The position numbers and the translations under genes are program-made. Of a stretch of DNA of 64,000 bases, positions 1 to 39,524 are shown one piece after another; position 1 is the stretch's first letter; the number at the start of each line of letters is the position of its first letter. The notes below the pieces were generated by a model. That model had not been told where the DNA came from, did not search any database, and was given only the letters and a program-made list of their open reading frames with translations. Where the stretch lies: NCBI GenBank assembly GCA_027490955.1, contig JAIXXB010000019.1, positions 62,001 to 126,000 of the forward strand, given 5' to 3'. This DNA comes from Rhodobacter sp. (GTDB lineage Bacteria; Pseudomonadota; Alphaproteobacteria; Rhodobacterales; Rhodobacteraceae).

Positions 1-1311
<1,311 letters not shown>

Positions 1312-1332
1312 GGGCTGGGTTTCAGCAAAACC

Positions 1333-1361
1333 AAAGCGCGCGGGCCTGCCTCGCGCGCTTT
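1333..1361 (+). terminator. Hairpin after katG
   Basis: AAAGCGCGCG and CGCGCGCTTT form a perfect 10-bp stem with a 9-nt loop, 22 bases after the katG stop. The stem has A-T pairs at its base, so it could act in both directions. It also lies downstream of the convergent hydrolase gene. There is no long T run, so terminator function is likely but not certain. Confidence 0.7.
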
Positions 1362-1460
1362 GACTATATCCAAACATCTATTTGCAAACATCGCCCCATT
1401 CATTGCCCCATGCATCGCCCCATTCGGCGCGCCGCCTTGGTTGGGCCAGCGCGCCTGCCG

Positions 1461-2333
1461 CTATGGCAGCGTCACGGCAAGCCAATCCATCACATCATCG
1501 AACCAGCGGTCTGACAATTTCTGCTGCTGCCTGATGCCAAAGCCATGCCCGCCATCGCCATAAATGTGGCAGGCAACCCGAACGCCCGCAGCATGCGCCA
1601 TTTGCGCCAGCGCAGCCGTTGAAAACGGCGCGACAACGTCATCATCGGCCGCCGCAATCAGGCATAGGGGCGGGCAATCGGCTGGGATGGTAGAGCCGCC
1701 GCGCCATGCGGGATAGACAGGCACGGCAAAGGCGGGGCGGCAGTCTGCTGGGGCTGCAAGGGCAAGGTCTACGGCCACGCCGCCACCGGCGGAAAACCCC
1801 ATAACGCCCAGTCGCGCAGGATCAATCCCAAAGCGCGCGGCCCCAGCGCGGATCACCCGCATCGCCTGCCGACCATCCGCCTCGGCCAGATCGCGGCCCG
1901 CCGAAATCTCGCCCGATCCGCTGGGTGGGGTGGCTTGGCCCGGATGCGCCCTCTCTAGCCGCTGATCCAATTCTTGCATAAAACGTGGGATGTCCGCGTC
2001 ATCCTGTGGCATCGGCCAAACGCGATAGGTCAACACAAAGGCGTCAATCCCGCGCAGGGCCAGCGCCCGTGCCACATCATAGCCTTCGTTGTCGATCGAC
2101 ACGAAATGAAATGCGCCCCCCGGAACCACAAGCATGGAAAGACCGCGGCCCTTTGCCTGCGCGGGAAAGCGCGTAAGGCGCGCGCGCGTCACGTTGCGGA
2201 TCCAGCGCTCTGGCACCTGCGGATTGGGATTGTCAAAGATCACTTCGCGGCGGTCATTGACAAACCCATCTGGCGCGCCTTGCGGCCAAAGGTCGATAAC
2301 TTCCGTTGCGCCTTCTGGCATGTTTACCATCAT
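1461..2333 (-). CDS. Alpha/beta hydrolase (acetyl-esterase / dienelactone hydrolase-like)
   Basis: A 290-residue cytosolic alpha/beta hydrolase. The oxyanion-hole segment reads VPGGAF (where many members have HGGG), the nucleophile elbow is GFSAGG, the acid is probably in AADDDVV, and the catalytic His is in GDGGHGFG. This order matches the acetyl-xylan esterase / bacterial lipase-like (esterase/lipase) group. The frame is open 99 bases further upstream, but I place the start at the ATG at 2333 (or the next codon, 2330) because GAAGGAAG sits just upstream on the minus strand. No signal peptide is seen. It stands alone, convergent with katG. The substrate cannot be predicted from the sequence. 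Confidence 0.85.
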   Translation of the reverse strand: MMVNMPEGATEVIDLWPQGAPDGFVNDRREVIFDNPNPQVPERWIRNVTRARLTRFPAQAKGRGLSMLVVPGGAFHFVSIDNEGYDVARALALRGIDAFVLTYRVWPMPQDDADIPRFMQELDQRLERAHPGQATPPSGSGEISAGRDLAEADGRQAMRVIRAGAARFGIDPARLGVMGFSAGGGVAVDLALAAPADCRPAFAVPVYPAWRGGSTIPADCPPLCLIAAADDDVVAPFSTAALAQMAHAAGVRVACHIYGDGGHGFGIRQQQKLSDRWFDDVMDWLAVTLP

Positions 2334-2573
2334 CAAATGTCTTCCTTCATCGGCTGGGACAGGGTCAGATTGCCCAGCTTGCATTTTTGCATGTCTTAAG
2401 CCGAGCGCATGATGCAGACGACTTTGCAGCAAAGCAATGTGAATTCACCCCCAAGTTTGCGCTTGACCGCGGCTGCGATCGGCGCGGCGCGCAAATCTGG
2501 AACAACGGCGGCGCATGGCTGGCAGCCCATGCTTGCCATTTGGCAAAGCCATCCTTTGATTTCAAAGGAAATT

Positions 2574-2650
2574 TGGTAGGCCCGGAGGGACTCGAACCCC
2601 CAACCAAGGCGTTATGAGCGCCCTGCTCTAACCAATTGAGCTACAGGCCC
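2574..2650 (-). tRNA. tRNA with CAU anticodon (elongator Met or Ile2)
   Basis: Read on the minus strand this is a 77-nt cloverleaf. The acceptor is GGGCCTG paired with CGGGCCT (including G-U pairs), followed by the discriminator A and an encoded CCA. The D-arm is GCTC..GAGC, the anticodon stem GGGCG/CGCCT has loop CTCATAA, and the T-arm contains TTCGAGT. The anticodon is CAU. It is not an initiator tRNA: position 1-72 is a G-U pair rather than a mismatch, and the anticodon stem lacks the three consecutive G-C pairs. Choosing between elongator Met and the lysidine-modified Ile2 needs a covariance-model comparison. Alphaproteobacterial tRNAs with a GGGCCTGTAGCTC start are, from memory, usually called Ile2. 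Confidence 0.95.
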
Positions 2651-2780
2651 CTGAGAGAGCGCCTACAGGGTTTGACTAAGGCCAAGCGGCGGCTGGGTCA
2701 AGATACCGCTTGCGCCTTTTCAATTGCGCAGGCTTGCGCTATCTGGCCGCAACGATTCCCCCTACGCGCGAGGCACCCTG

Positions 2781-3836
2781 ATGAGCAACACGGACGCAAG
2801 GCGGAAAGGCCTGACCTATGCGCAGGCGGGCGTGGACATTGATGCGGGCAATGCGCTGGTCGAGGCGATCAAGCCCGCGGCCAAACGCACGGCGCGGTCT
2901 GGTGTGATGTCGGGCCTTGGCGGGTTTGGCGCGCTGTTTGATCTGAAAGGCGCGGGGTATAAAGACCCGATTTTGGTGGCGGCAACGGATGGTGTGGGCA
3001 CCAAACTGCGCATTGCGATTGACACGGGCCATGTGGACACAATCGGCGTGGATTTGGTGGCGATGTGCGTCAATGATCTGGTCTGCCAAGGGGCAGAGCC
3101 ATTGTTTTTCCTTGATTATTTTGCCACAGGCAAGCTGGATGTGGAACAGGCCACCCGCATCATCAACGGCATTGCGGCAGGCTGTGAGGCGTCAGGCTGC
3201 GCGCTGATCGGCGGCGAGACGGCGGAAATGCCGGGCATGTATCATGGGGGCGATTTCGACCTTGCAGGTTTTGCCGTGGGCGCGATGGAGCGCGGGCATG
3301 ATCTGCCCAGCGGCGTGCAAGCGGGGGATGTGATCCTTGGGCTTGCGTCAAATGGCGTGCATTCCAACGGCTATTCCTTTGTGCGCAAAGTGGTCGAAAT
3401 GTCAGGGCTGAACTGGGACAGCCCTTCGCCTTTTGCACAGGGAACTTTGGGCGCGGCGCTGCTGGCGCCAACGCGGCTTTATGTGAAACAGGCGCTGGCG
3501 GCAGTGCGGGCAGGGGGGGTGCATGCGCTGGCCCATATCACAGGCGGCGGCATCACCGAAAACCCGCCGCGCGTGGTGCCAGAGGGGCTGGCCTGCGAGA
3601 TTGACCTATCAAGCTGGGCCTTGCCTGCCGTGTTCCGCTGGTTGGCACAGACGGCAGGGATGAGCGAGCCTGAACTTTTGAAAACATTCAACTGCGGCAT
3701 TGGCATGATGCTGGTGGTGGATGCTGCAAGGGCAGATGCCATCACCGCGCTGCTTGCGGATATGGGCGAGACTGTCACCCGCATCGGCCAAATCACCAAA
3801 GGGCAGGGCGTGATCTACCAAGGCCGCCTGCTGTGA
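2781..3836 (+). CDS. purM: Phosphoribosylformylglycinamidine cyclo-ligase
   Basis: AIR synthetase, the fifth step of de novo purine synthesis: ATP-dependent ring closure of FGAM to AIR in the cytosol. It has 351 residues, the usual length. Visible signatures are the glycine-rich GLGGFG (45-50), the ATP-binding ATDGVGTKL (68-76), [16 protein letters not shown] (95-110) and [10 protein letters not shown]. The frame is open further upstream, but the ATG at 2781 is preferred because GAGG lies 7 bases before it and because the N-terminus [20 protein letters not shown] matches the family. The stop overlaps the GTG start of purN by 4 bp, so the two are translationally coupled. Confidence 0.97.
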
Positions 3837-4423
3837 AACGCATAGCCATCCTGATATCGGGTGGCGGCTCGAATATGATGGCGCTGCTGCGCGATATGGC
3901 GGGCGATCATCCCGCCCGCCCCGTTCTGGTGGCCAGCAATGACCCCGCCGCCGCAGGTCTGGCGCGGGCCGAGGCCGCGGGGGTGGCAACCCTTGCGCTG
4001 GATCATCGCGGCTATGGCACGCGGGCGGCCTTTGAATCCGATCTTGCCCGCGCGCTGCATGATGTGCGCCCCGATATCATCGCGCTGGCAGGGTTCATGC
4101 GCATCCTCTCGCCCGAATTCGTCGGCCAGTTTGCGGGCAAAATGCTGAACATCCACCCCTCATTGCTGCCGAAATATCCTGGCCTTCACACCCATGCCCG
4201 CGCGATTGCGGCGGGTGATACCGAGGCAGGCTGCACTGTGCATGAGGTGACGGCAGATTTGGACGCAGGCCCGATTTTGGGGCAGGCAAGGGTCACGATT
4301 GAGGCAGGCGAGACGGAAGCCAGCCTTGCCGCCAAGGTCTTGGTGCAAGAACACCGCCTTTACCCTGCTGTGCTGCGCGCCTTTGCCAGTGGCGATCGGC
4401 AACCGATTTTCCTTACAGAATGA
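3833..4423 (+). CDS. purN: Phosphoribosylglycinamide formyltransferase
   Basis: GAR transformylase, which transfers a formyl group from 10-formyl-THF to GAR in purine synthesis. It has 196 residues. The family's catalytic residues appear at exactly the E. coli positions: Asn106 and His108 in LNIHPSLLP, and Asp144 in TADLDAGPI. The N-terminal ISGGGSN loop binds the phosphate of GAR. Translation starts at GTG 3833, inside the purM stop (GTGA overlap). The 3' end overlaps the convergent RTX gene by 11 bases. Confidence 0.97.
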
Positions 4424-37744: not shown

Positions 37745-37972
37745 CATGTGTCCCACTTGGCACGGAAGCAAGGCGCGCAGCGCCGCCGTGTTTGCCATTG
37801 GTTTCGCCATTGGTTCAAGAAACCAATGGCATGGCCCGAACCGCCCCCACGGGGCGGGCGCACTCTGCCGACAGTGCCTAGAACTGGCCAAGGGAGACCT
37901 GCACCATAAAGGGCCTAGAACTTGCGCAAGCGCTCCCACCCCTCGGTTCGGGCGCGGCACTCAAGTTGCTCG
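37745..37972 (+). repeat. Structured repeat element, left copy (R1), between murC and the accessory gene
   Basis: Homologous to 39339-39524 in the same orientation. Shared parts: a hairpin at 37761-37790 (CACGG..CCGTG outside, GGCGC-GCA-GCGCC inside), a G/C hairpin CCGCCCC-CAC-GGGGCGG (37841-37857), the invariant GTGCCTAGAACTGGC (37874-37888) and CCTGCACCATAAAGGG (37898-37913), and a tail GGCGCGG..GCTCG. It carries an extra hairpin at 37794-37830. The 125 bases before it (37620-37744) contain two imperfect TTTGCGT..ATCCGT repeats and no gene. Confidence 0.85.
37794..37830 (+). repeat. 12-bp inverted repeat inside R1
   Basis: GCCATTGGTTTC (37794-37805) is exactly complementary to GAAACCAATGGC (37819-37830). 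The loop itself begins with GCCATTGGTT, so the left arm is also a direct repeat. The right copy R2 has no counterpart. Confidence 0.85.
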
Positions 37973-38035
37973 TAAGGCCACCCCCGCTAGACAACCCAAA
38001 TCCCCCCCGCCATACTCGCCCTAAAGGGGTGGGGC

Positions 38036-39334
38036 ATGGCGGATATTGAGATCACGGATGAGGCCAGCCTAGAGGCTTGGCTGAAGACAAGGCCCCGCAG
38101 GGATGCCGAGATCATCGCCTTTCGGGCAGCAGCACGGGTGTTCCCGCTGTGGGGGCGGGCGATGGAGGAGGAGTGGGTATTGCCCTCTGGCATTGATGCG
38201 GACGAGGGTCAACTGAGCGCAATCGATTGTGCGCGTATGCTCTTGACGGCATTATCGCTGAAAGGTGCACGAGACCAACATGTTAAGCGCAGTTTTGGCT
38301 CTGCCGTCGACACTTTTGTCTCGTTATCATTTCGTGAAGTGCCAAAGTCAGGGATCGAGTCAGCCTTCCGTTTCGCACAATGTGTTTACGCCAATGAGAT
38401 ACCAAAGGCGCTAACAAGTGACGAAATAAATGATGATTTGGCGTTGCGGAAGGCTGTTGAAACTCTTGGCAGCGCGCTTCAAGCAACAGCTGAACTTTAT
38501 TCGGTTGAAGACATTTGGGACTTTGATGACGTTTGGAGTATGGATGAACTCTCGAAAGCCTTGTTTTCTAGACAAGTTTCGCTGGACTGTGAAAAACTGA
38601 TGTTAGCGGAAAAGATTGATAACTCCCCCCTCTGGCCCAAACCTGCACCAAAATGGTTCACCAAAGCCGACGGCGAGACCCGCGCCATTTGGGCCAAAGA
38701 CCCTGCCACTTGGGCGTTTTGGGAAAAGTGGTGGGATGGGGTGACCAGCGGCGATATGCCCTTTTCCCCCGAACTCCTCCGCGATGTGGCCTTGATCGAG
38801 GATTATATCTGGCAAGCAGGGCCAAAGGCGGTGGCGGAGCGTATCAACCTGCTGATCCAGCGCAACGCCCTGCAGCGCGAGGCGGCCGCGATCAATGCGA
38901 GGCTGATGGAGTTTATCGCCTTCAACGAAGGGCTGGGCGCGAACCTACATAACCAACCGCCAGAGGATGAACTATCGCCCGTCAAGCTGCGCGCGACCTT
39001 GGGGGAAATCTTGCAAGCCCTGAAAGAAATCGAGGTCGCGTTGGACGGCCCCGAAATCTTGCCCGAAGTGGTTGCGGGTTTGGGGCAGCGTTTGAAAGAC
39101 CTTTGGGATGGTTTTTCGGCAAAAGTCAAGGTGGGGATAGTAGGGCTAACCTTTGTCGCAACGAGTATTTCTCAAGGCTTCCTTGGCTCTGTAGGTGATG
39201 ATATTCATGAACTGGTAAAACGCAACATCGACATCCCCAGCTTTTCCCGCCGCTTGCTGGACTTTGGCAAAGAACTGGAAAAACCGCGTAATCCCGCCCC
39301 AGTGTTTCCACCGCGCCCGCCAGTGGATTTGTAA
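38036..39334 (+). CDS. Uncharacterised 432-residue protein inserted in the dcw cluster
   Basis: I do not recognise a characterised family. The N-terminus is helical (EASLEAWLKTRPRRDAEII, FRAAARVFPLWG). The middle has FWEKWWDGVTSGDMPFSPEL followed by LRDVALIEDYIW. Residues about 300-312 read LGANLHNQPPEDE, close to the HNxPPE motif that I recall from many hypothetical proteins of Rhodobacteraceae and their phages. Near the C-terminus, VGIVGLTFVATSISQGFLG is one possible membrane segment, followed by a Pro-rich tail. Codons about 70-195 (38240-38625) are distinctly AT-richer than both ends, so the gene looks mosaic. It is flanked by direct repeats R1 and R2. Start ATG 38036 follows an AAAGGGG-type site. 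Confidence 0.7.
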   Translation: MADIEITDEASLEAWLKTRPRRDAEIIAFRAAARVFPLWGRAMEEEWVLPSGIDADEGQLSAIDCARMLLTALSLKGARDQHVKRSFGSAVDTFVSLSFREVPKSGIESAFRFAQCVYANEIPKALTSDEINDDLALRKAVETLGSALQATAELYSVEDIWDFDDVWSMDELSKALFSRQVSLDCEKLMLAEKIDNSPLWPKPAPKWFTKADGETRAIWAKDPATWAFWEKWWDGVTSGDMPFSPELLRDVALIEDYIWQAGPKAVAERINLLIQRNALQREAAAINARLMEFIAFNEGLGANLHNQPPEDELSPVKLRATLGEILQALKEIEVALDGPEILPEVVAGLGQRLKDLWDGFSAKVKVGIVGLTFVATSISQGFLGSVGDDIHELVKRNIDIPSFSRRLLDFGKELEKPRNPAPVFPPRPPVDL

Positions 39335-39338
39335 CAGC

Positions 39339-39524
39339 CATTTGCCGCATCTTGGCCCGGAATCAAGGCGCAACGCGCCGCCGGGCCGCGCCCTCCCTCC
39401 CCCCGGGAGGGCGCGCTTTGCCGTTTGTGCCTAGAACTGGCGTAGGGGGGCCTGCACCATAAAGGGAGCAGAACCTCTGCGGTGCGCCATCCCGAGGGAG
39501 GGCGCGGCCCTCTACCTGCTCTCG
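39339..39524 (+). repeat. Structured repeat element, right copy (R2), before murB
   Basis: Begins 5 bases after the accessory gene stop. Hairpin 39356-39385 has outer arms CCCGG/CCGGG (CACGG/CCGTG in R1: a compensatory A-T to C-G change) and inner GGCGC-AAC-GCGCC. The second hairpin is GCGCCCTCCC/GGGAGGGCGC (39388-39414). The core GTGCCTAGAACTGGC (39427-39441) and CCTGCACCATAAAGGG (39451-39466) is identical to R1 with the same 24-base offset. GAGCAG (39466-39471) can pair with CTGCTC (39516-39521). Confidence 0.85.

Follow-up and report, generated by a model that had tools for sequence, protein, structure and literature searches.

The two repeats that bracket a 432-codon gene between murC and murB in a Rhodobacter sp. 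genome, here called R1 and R2, both belong to an unnamed element, rich in hairpins and about 170 bases long, whose copies are dispersed behind gene ends in many Rhodobacteraceae. They were probably acquired separately, as members of a REP/BIME-like family of large palindromic repeats that are interspersed in these genomes. Positions given below refer to the window, i.e., the whole stretch of 64,000 nucleotides that was analyzed. The element is a structured repeat present in over half of the sampled Rhodobacteraceae genomes, with at least 150 matches in one of them and without an Rfam family. It provides dozens of natural replicates per genome for testing the effect of large 3′-end repeats on transcripts, allows repeat spread to be studied in genomes without a detected RAYT transposase and draws attention to an unnamed protein family that may be its partner.

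Structure of the two copies and of the family

R1 lies on the plus strand at 37755-37966, 135 nt 3′ of the murC stop codon, and scores 102.9 bits with the family profile. R2, at 39349-39515 on the same strand, lies between the 432-codon gene, whose stop codon is approximately 15 nt away, and murB, which begins about 62 nt further on; it scores 143.6 bits with the profile (39349-39514) and 135.4 bits with the covariance model (39353-39515). The same model recognizes R1 with 50.1 bits at 37804-37960, in addition to its 5′ hairpin with 30.8 bits. Both elements are covered by the direct repeats D1, D2 and D5 and the inverted pair I1. An earlier sequence-only reading had placed two structured elements on either side of the gene, which is confirmed, and had described a shared core with a 24-base offset. 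This core, GTGCCTAGAACTGGC followed by CCTGCACCATAAAGGG at offset 24, has exactly two matches in the window, in the loops of R1 (37874-37913, plus strand) and R2 (39427-39466, plus strand), and none in 100 shuffles.

In general, the unit measures about 150-175 nt and has two parts: a conserved 5′ hairpin whose internal loop reads AATCAA, and an imperfect stem formed over a long range, which surrounds a loop of about 65-75 nt with a CATAAAG-like motif. The 5′ hairpin, H1, is found at 37761-37790 in R1, where its helix is backed by covariation, and at 39355-39386 in R2 (both plus strand), where it reads GCCCGG AATCAA GGCGC..GCGCC G CCGGGC and is supported by covariation and by the covariance model. 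The long-range stem of R2 spans 39383-39510 (plus strand), with 39383-39399 pairing to 39494-39510 (pair I1, 17 nt, 100% complementary), and is seen both in the minimum-energy fold and in the covariation analysis. Its inner arm, 39405-39415 paired to 39483-39493, closes a 67-nt loop that holds the core.

The earlier description of the second hairpin as kept with unrelated sequence needs refining: in R1 this hairpin is enlarged by an extra palindromic unit of about 42 nt, TTTGCCATTGGTTT...AAACCAATGGCATGG (37791-37833, plus strand; inverted pair I9). Nearly identical letters are present in the copy of the sister species G013, and 42-nt inserts occur at the same insertion point in copies of G009 and G011. 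Such a unit was observed at one common point in copies of four sister species (37791-37833 of the window and L052, L062, L097, L100), and a related stretch exists elsewhere in the own genome (G000:C37:60670-60728). This gives the impression of one repeat nested within another. Insertions of approximately 70 nt were also observed within the second hairpin of five copies (L047, L048, L114, L132, L133).

To assess covariation, 138 candidates without long inserts, a set that excludes R1 and other copies carrying such inserts, were thinned at 90% identity to 94; omission of L051, which has a deletion, gave a final alignment of 93 copies, with R2 entered by its window reference. The structure, composed of H1 (6 + 5 pairs), P:P′ (11) and Q:Q′ (9), has 31 pairs with 94.8% standard pairing. 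Double changes fill 211 cells compared to 48.5 in shuffles and affect 15 pairs, and the covariation score is 0.218 against 0.056 in shuffled alignments, with none of 500 shuffles as high. Versions of the structure slid along the alignment score at most 0.036, and their pairing drops to 38-45%. The suggestion that this is a structured element with compensatory changes in its stems is thereby borne out, and the A-T to C-G swap noticed in the 5′ hairpin of R1 and R2 turns out to be general, the pair being C-G in 67 of the 93 copies, G-C in 16, A-U in 6, U-G in 1 and otherwise in 3. The letters of H1, unlike those of the long stem, were fixed by the pattern used to search GTDB genomes, so its conservation in GTDB copies is partly by construction.

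A local hairpin that shares its left arm with the long-range stem covaries as well (0.274 compared to 0.072 in shuffles). Coupling is strongest between columns 48 and 171, where each of the four Watson-Crick pairs occurs (AT 50, CG 17, TA 9, GC 9); these columns belong to the long-range stem and are bulged in the local hairpin. As both pairings covary, two mutually exclusive pairings are kept. For R2 RNA, minimum-energy folding yields the long-range form (z -4.4). Over the 93 copies, the mean folding z is -3.4 for the sense and -2.8 for the antisense strand; the strands fold about equally, so folding does not separate an RNA from a DNA role. Three other structural proposals were rejected: a third local hairpin, H3, in which two positions are paired in merely 47% and 13% of copies; a choice of strand by G-U versus A-C counts, which is inconsistent between helices (18 versus 57 in P:P′, 20 versus 10 in H2); and a 3′-end alternative to H1, for which slid versions score equally high.

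Host range and genomic placement

In the own genome, a BLAST search with R1 gave further copies, six of which align end to end, plus a fragment at a contig end (L131). The profile built from these six copies gave 111 matches in the loci to which it was applied, 71 of them distinct and full length. R2 has matches at E 0.001 in 13 of the 15 genomes of the genus. GTDB genomes were scanned for the pattern of the 5′ hairpin, which did not require the full element; this returned at least 118 stretches, and the full element is present in 75 of 80 GTDB loci among the matches listed; these belong to Roseovarius, Frigidibacter, Cypionkella, Leisingera, Sulfitobacter, Tabrizicola, Shimia and other Rhodobacteraceae, plus metagenome bins named at higher rank. 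In a sample of 120 genomes of the family, with at most 24 candidates scored per genome, the covariance model matches 74 and detects no element in 46. The element thus occurs well beyond the locus where the sequence-only reading, which had called for a search of related genomes, first saw it. In a sample of 240 genomes of the class, matches are limited to G000 and G209, both Rhodobacteraceae.

Abundance varies widely. With 150 candidates scored per genome, at least 150 matches were obtained in G032, 54 in G023, 36 in G063, 22 in G017 and 4 in G164, the numbers for G023, G063 and G017 including a few places matched on both strands. For the 3.8-Mb genome of G032 (contigs C1-C4), 97 of the at least 150 model matches are at distinct places among the matches listed. 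Copies in this genome often form tandem pairs, and a GGTGGGTT..ACCCACC-type palindrome lies between the two members in all eight pairs examined. The phage records searched gave no match, and the plasmid search gave partial matches in six records. No family of Rfam 15 fits the element: in the window the gathering score is reached by a tRNA alone, located elsewhere, and the best score at R2 is 21.6 bits where 50 are required, with nothing credible at the locus.

The copies are found behind stop codons, with an excess between convergent genes and a near absence from divergent gaps. Genes for these counts were called by a codon-score script. An unbiased sample was taken from 80 stretches of 20 kb (1.6 Mb) in four copy-rich genomes, using 38 of 44 listed matches. 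These 38 copies form 29 clusters, of which 12 are convergent, 16 tandem, none divergent and 1 at an edge, compared to 100 convergent, 441 tandem and 194 divergent background gaps of at least 60 nt (Fisher 2.2e-4 and 5e-4). A targeted set (40 of 60 matches used, nine copies of which repeat the unbiased sample) contains 20 convergent, 16 tandem, 2 divergent and 2 edge cases. In a wider sample, 96 of 146 located copies could be classed, as both neighbors had to lie within 600 nt (25 edge and 25 far copies are unclassed), and comprise 48 convergent, 44 tandem and 4 divergent cases; four copies had entered twice, under a G handle and as a named record, and a recount minus eight rows, four of which were dropped inadvertently, gives 45, 42 and 4. 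Tandem copies show no preferred orientation to their genes, with 21 in the same and 23 in the opposite direction in the wider sample and 15 and 17 in the analysis of the unbiased and targeted sets. None of the 146 copies lies wholly within a called gene, and one overlaps and terminates a polymerase gene. This is L029, on contig C34 of the own genome, where a copy at 910-1083 overlaps the 3′ end of gene 971-3916, named by eye from its protein as a DnaE-type polymerase, and contributes its final codons; another copy is found on the other side of the gene.

The murC-murB junction and the 432-codon gene

The gap between murC and murB differs in each of four sister species. The own junction reads murC-R1-gene-R2-murB. 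G009 has murC-gene-element-murB, the orthologous R1 site being empty; G013 has murC-IS110-element-murB, without the gene; and G011 has neither gene nor element and carries two GGTGCGTG palindromes between murC and murB. Copies at R2's place before murB are found in G009, in G013 and in G017, which belongs to another genus. Among the murC-murB junctions compared, the element is present at three of the four that bear the gene (own, G009 and G017; not G012), compared to 1 of 14 others. For both R1 and R2, closer matches exist among other copies than between the two. Since the junctions differ among sister species and the R1 site of G009 is empty, R1 is a copy in its own right, recent or labile.

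These comparisons bear on the proposal that R1 and R2 bound a recent mobile cassette, from which recombination between the two would remove the gene and leave one copy. The gene is tied to the element, which lies directly behind it in 8 of 30 homologue loci; the two-ended cassette itself is largely refuted and very unlikely to be the explanation. It could account for the gene and its 3′ element recurring elsewhere (G151, G025, G150 and, with a degraded gene, contig C21 of G011) and for G013, which is without the gene yet retains one element before murB. However, the own locus is the only one with a copy on the 5′ side of the gene, in G009 the gene and R2 are present and the R1 site is empty, and the nearest relatives of R1 and R2 are other copies. 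Moreover, the single copy of G013 is no demonstrable chimera of the two, and murC and/or murB lie within the fetched flank at 14 of the 30 homologue loci, the own locus included. A second origin, in which the element would be part of an IS110-family element, as a relic of its bridge RNA, has almost no chance of being right. A PF01548/PF02371 transposase does lie 40 nt before the G013 copy, and G009 contains a second copy of this IS, separated from an element by about 550 nt. Yet the region common to both IS copies starts at a GGTGCGTG-type palindrome and stops 22 nt before the element, and apart from G013, G009 and a partial match in L232 it is absent from the other loci examined. As the ends of the shared region lie outside the element, the link to IS110 is refuted.

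The 432-codon gene (38036-39334, plus strand) is uncharacterized; its family often lies between murC and murB and is linked to the element on its 3′ side. Its protein has no match in Pfam, NCBIfam or PADLOC, and of four homologues compared to Pfam, two gave sub-cut-off matches only. The family has invariant Trp, Arg and Pro residues and no known domain. The AlphaFold model is all-helical, with a mean pLDDT of 67, and has no PDB match at E 0.001. Homologues were found in 30 of 195 relatives by a search with a single protein sequence; the family is very divergent. The eight elements that the DNA profile places directly behind the gene come from six genera (own, G009 and G011 in one genus; G017, G025, G034, G150 and G151) and lie 19-90 nt from the stop codon, six of them on the same strand; in G151, G025 and G150, the 8-10 kb retrieved contains no murC or murB. 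Weak or partial model matches occur within about 60 nt of the gene in four further genomes (G172, G015, G068, G166), and 18 of the 30 gene loci have no nearby element, even with the covariance model. In copy-rich genomes, approximately 40 of 1437 gene ends adjoin a copy, an estimated background of about 2.8%, against which 8 of 30 loci gives a binomial probability of 1.3e-6, and 6 of 27 genera one of 9e-5. The 432-codon gene family thus has a copy behind it far more often than other genes. At the genome level, among family genomes G015-G089, the element is present in all 17 gene-positive genomes compared to 48 of 68 overall (hypergeometric 0.0009). Conversely, 31 of the 48 element-positive genomes gave no gene match, including the copy-rich G023, G032 and G063, and in the loci fetched by element searches a protein profile finds the gene only at the own, G009 and G011 loci. 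Linkage on the one hand and element loci without the gene on the other indicate that a copy can do without the gene next to it, but that the gene tends to be accompanied by a copy. At L068, on contig C21 of G011 and away from murC-murB, a disrupted relative of the gene has an element 19 nt behind it.

Spread, role and relation to known repeats

Orthologous copies are kept across species in the same orientation, by two-sided comparison, at five sites (L047/L111/L130, L057/L122, L117/L124, L118/L121 and L178/L205) and are inverted at two others (L166/L231 and L119/L174). No same-genome pair in the genus (67 copies) exceeds approximately 95% identity, and there is therefore no sign of present movement. 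The outer ends of the element have weak inverted similarity alone, and no target-site duplication is readable at the empty R1 site of G009, which is too diverged. In three genomes, 58 of 86 copies share an orientation relative to the replichore (p 0.0016), which gene orientation does not explain; with the best copies of two genomes, the counts are 30 of 41 at 60 bits (p 0.004) and 20 of 29 at 75 bits (p 0.06). The replichore zones behind these numbers were delimited visually on sampled GC skew, and the counts omit G023 copies beyond 2.68 Mb, one near-origin copy of G017 and all of G032, which was too noisy; the orientation bias is a lead only.

Three accounts of how the element spreads or acts can be weighed against this background. 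Movement as a non-autonomous single-strand transposon, by a Y1 or similar enzyme, would suit the hairpin ends, the presence or absence of R1 and the mild replichore bias. Nevertheless, a Y1 transposase (PF01797) is found in 3 of 15 genus genomes, in one of them over the cut-off, and not in the other 12, whereas the element is present in 13; the bias fades with the best copies, and no conserved target is seen in the flanks. This makes such a transposon unlikely. A role as functional 3′-UTR RNA, i.e., a cis-acting switch between the local hairpin and the long stem that would end transcription or protect mRNA ends in both directions, is a tentative possibility. The covariation of two exclusive helices, the location behind stop codons and the folding of both strands are what one would expect of it. 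The random orientation of copies to tandem genes, the lack of a U-run terminator at R1 and R2 and the 46 of 120 family genomes in which none was detected speak against it.

The third account concerns the 432-codon product, which by analogy might be the dedicated partner of the element, for dispersal or binding, with the copy behind the gene as founder. RAYT genes are partners of REPs in this way. The eight linked loci in six genera, with four weaker partial matches, the co-occurrence in 17 of 17 gene-positive genomes and the contrast between gene-bearing and other murC-murB junctions would fit such a partnership. However, the co-occurrence is partly made by the linked copy itself, most element-positive genomes gave no gene match, 18 gene loci are without a nearby element, and the protein has no nuclease or transposase domain, its all-helical model being of modest confidence. 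A dedicated partner is accordingly doubtful. A RAYT-like partner would be the boldest reading of the linkage, and a preferred target behind the 432-codon gene would be the plain one. The combined proposal, a family-wide repeat with two exclusive, separately conserved folds that is spread to gene ends by a 432-codon partner without a known transposase domain, is rather improbable as a whole.

Under the preferred explanation, that of separately acquired interspersed repeats, copies would spread rarely, perhaps as folded single-stranded DNA. They would be tolerated or kept at gene ends because RNA transcribed from either strand forms a strong hairpin, which may end or protect mRNAs. The 432-codon gene may then be the partner of the repeat family, as RAYT is for REPs.

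The element shares with REP/BIME sequences its many interspersed extragenic copies, its hairpin palindromes, a preference for gene ends rather than promoters and the formation of mosaics with other palindromes. A gene family linked to copies is perhaps a likeness to REP/RAYT systems. A REP unit, however, measures a few tens of nucleotides, and REP/RAYT systems combine a short unit that has a GTAG-type head with a Y1 transposase partner. The present unit is about 170 nt, the 12 genus genomes without PF01797 have no Y1/RAYT gene, and the linked 432-codon gene is outside the RAYT family. As it lacks the short unit and the RAYT partner, the element is REP-like and is not claimed as a member of REP/RAYT.

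A literature search, with subscription journals outside its scope, found no description of the element. The closest published system, going by the parts of PMC5082802 that describe it, is Br-REP1 of Bradyrhizobium. Br-REP1 has three palindromes that form three stem-loops as RNA, was first seen in overlapping 3′-UTRs of convergent genes, and has its central stem-loop at approximately 200 sites, with an abundance that varies strongly among relatives (PMC5082802). Palindromic multi-stem-loop repeats, convergent 3′ ends and uneven abundance are thus common to both, whereas the sequence (Br-REP1 has CCGGAATCTCGAGATTCCGG) and the bacterial order differ, and the covarying long-range stem has no counterpart in these parts of PMC5082802. 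Two other structured intergenic motifs resemble the element in being just that, according to their entries in PMC8632094. HRC-8-4 also has a limited range, Rhodobacterales, and is set apart by its description there as a terminator-like stem with a U-run, located mainly between cco operons; OTH-22-1 is described as attC-like, with the motif RYYYAAC at its end (PMC8632094). No attC consensus ends (RYYYAAC) were seen by eye in the aligned element copies.

Other palindromes accompany some copies. GTAGGGTG-type palindromes are found in 20 of 274 flanks compared to 18 of 6734 random windows, but also in 1 of 49 element-free intergenic gaps, and a link with the element is not established. In the own genome, GGTGCGTGnnnnCACGCACC, a shorter palindrome, forms an interspersed repeat of its own with 13 exact places, for example G000:C8:97931-97950, C29:3399-3418 and C14:92-111, which are within approximately 120 nt of an element copy. 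The IS110 copies of G013 and G009 also begin beside a GGTGCGTGnnnnCACGCACC palindrome.
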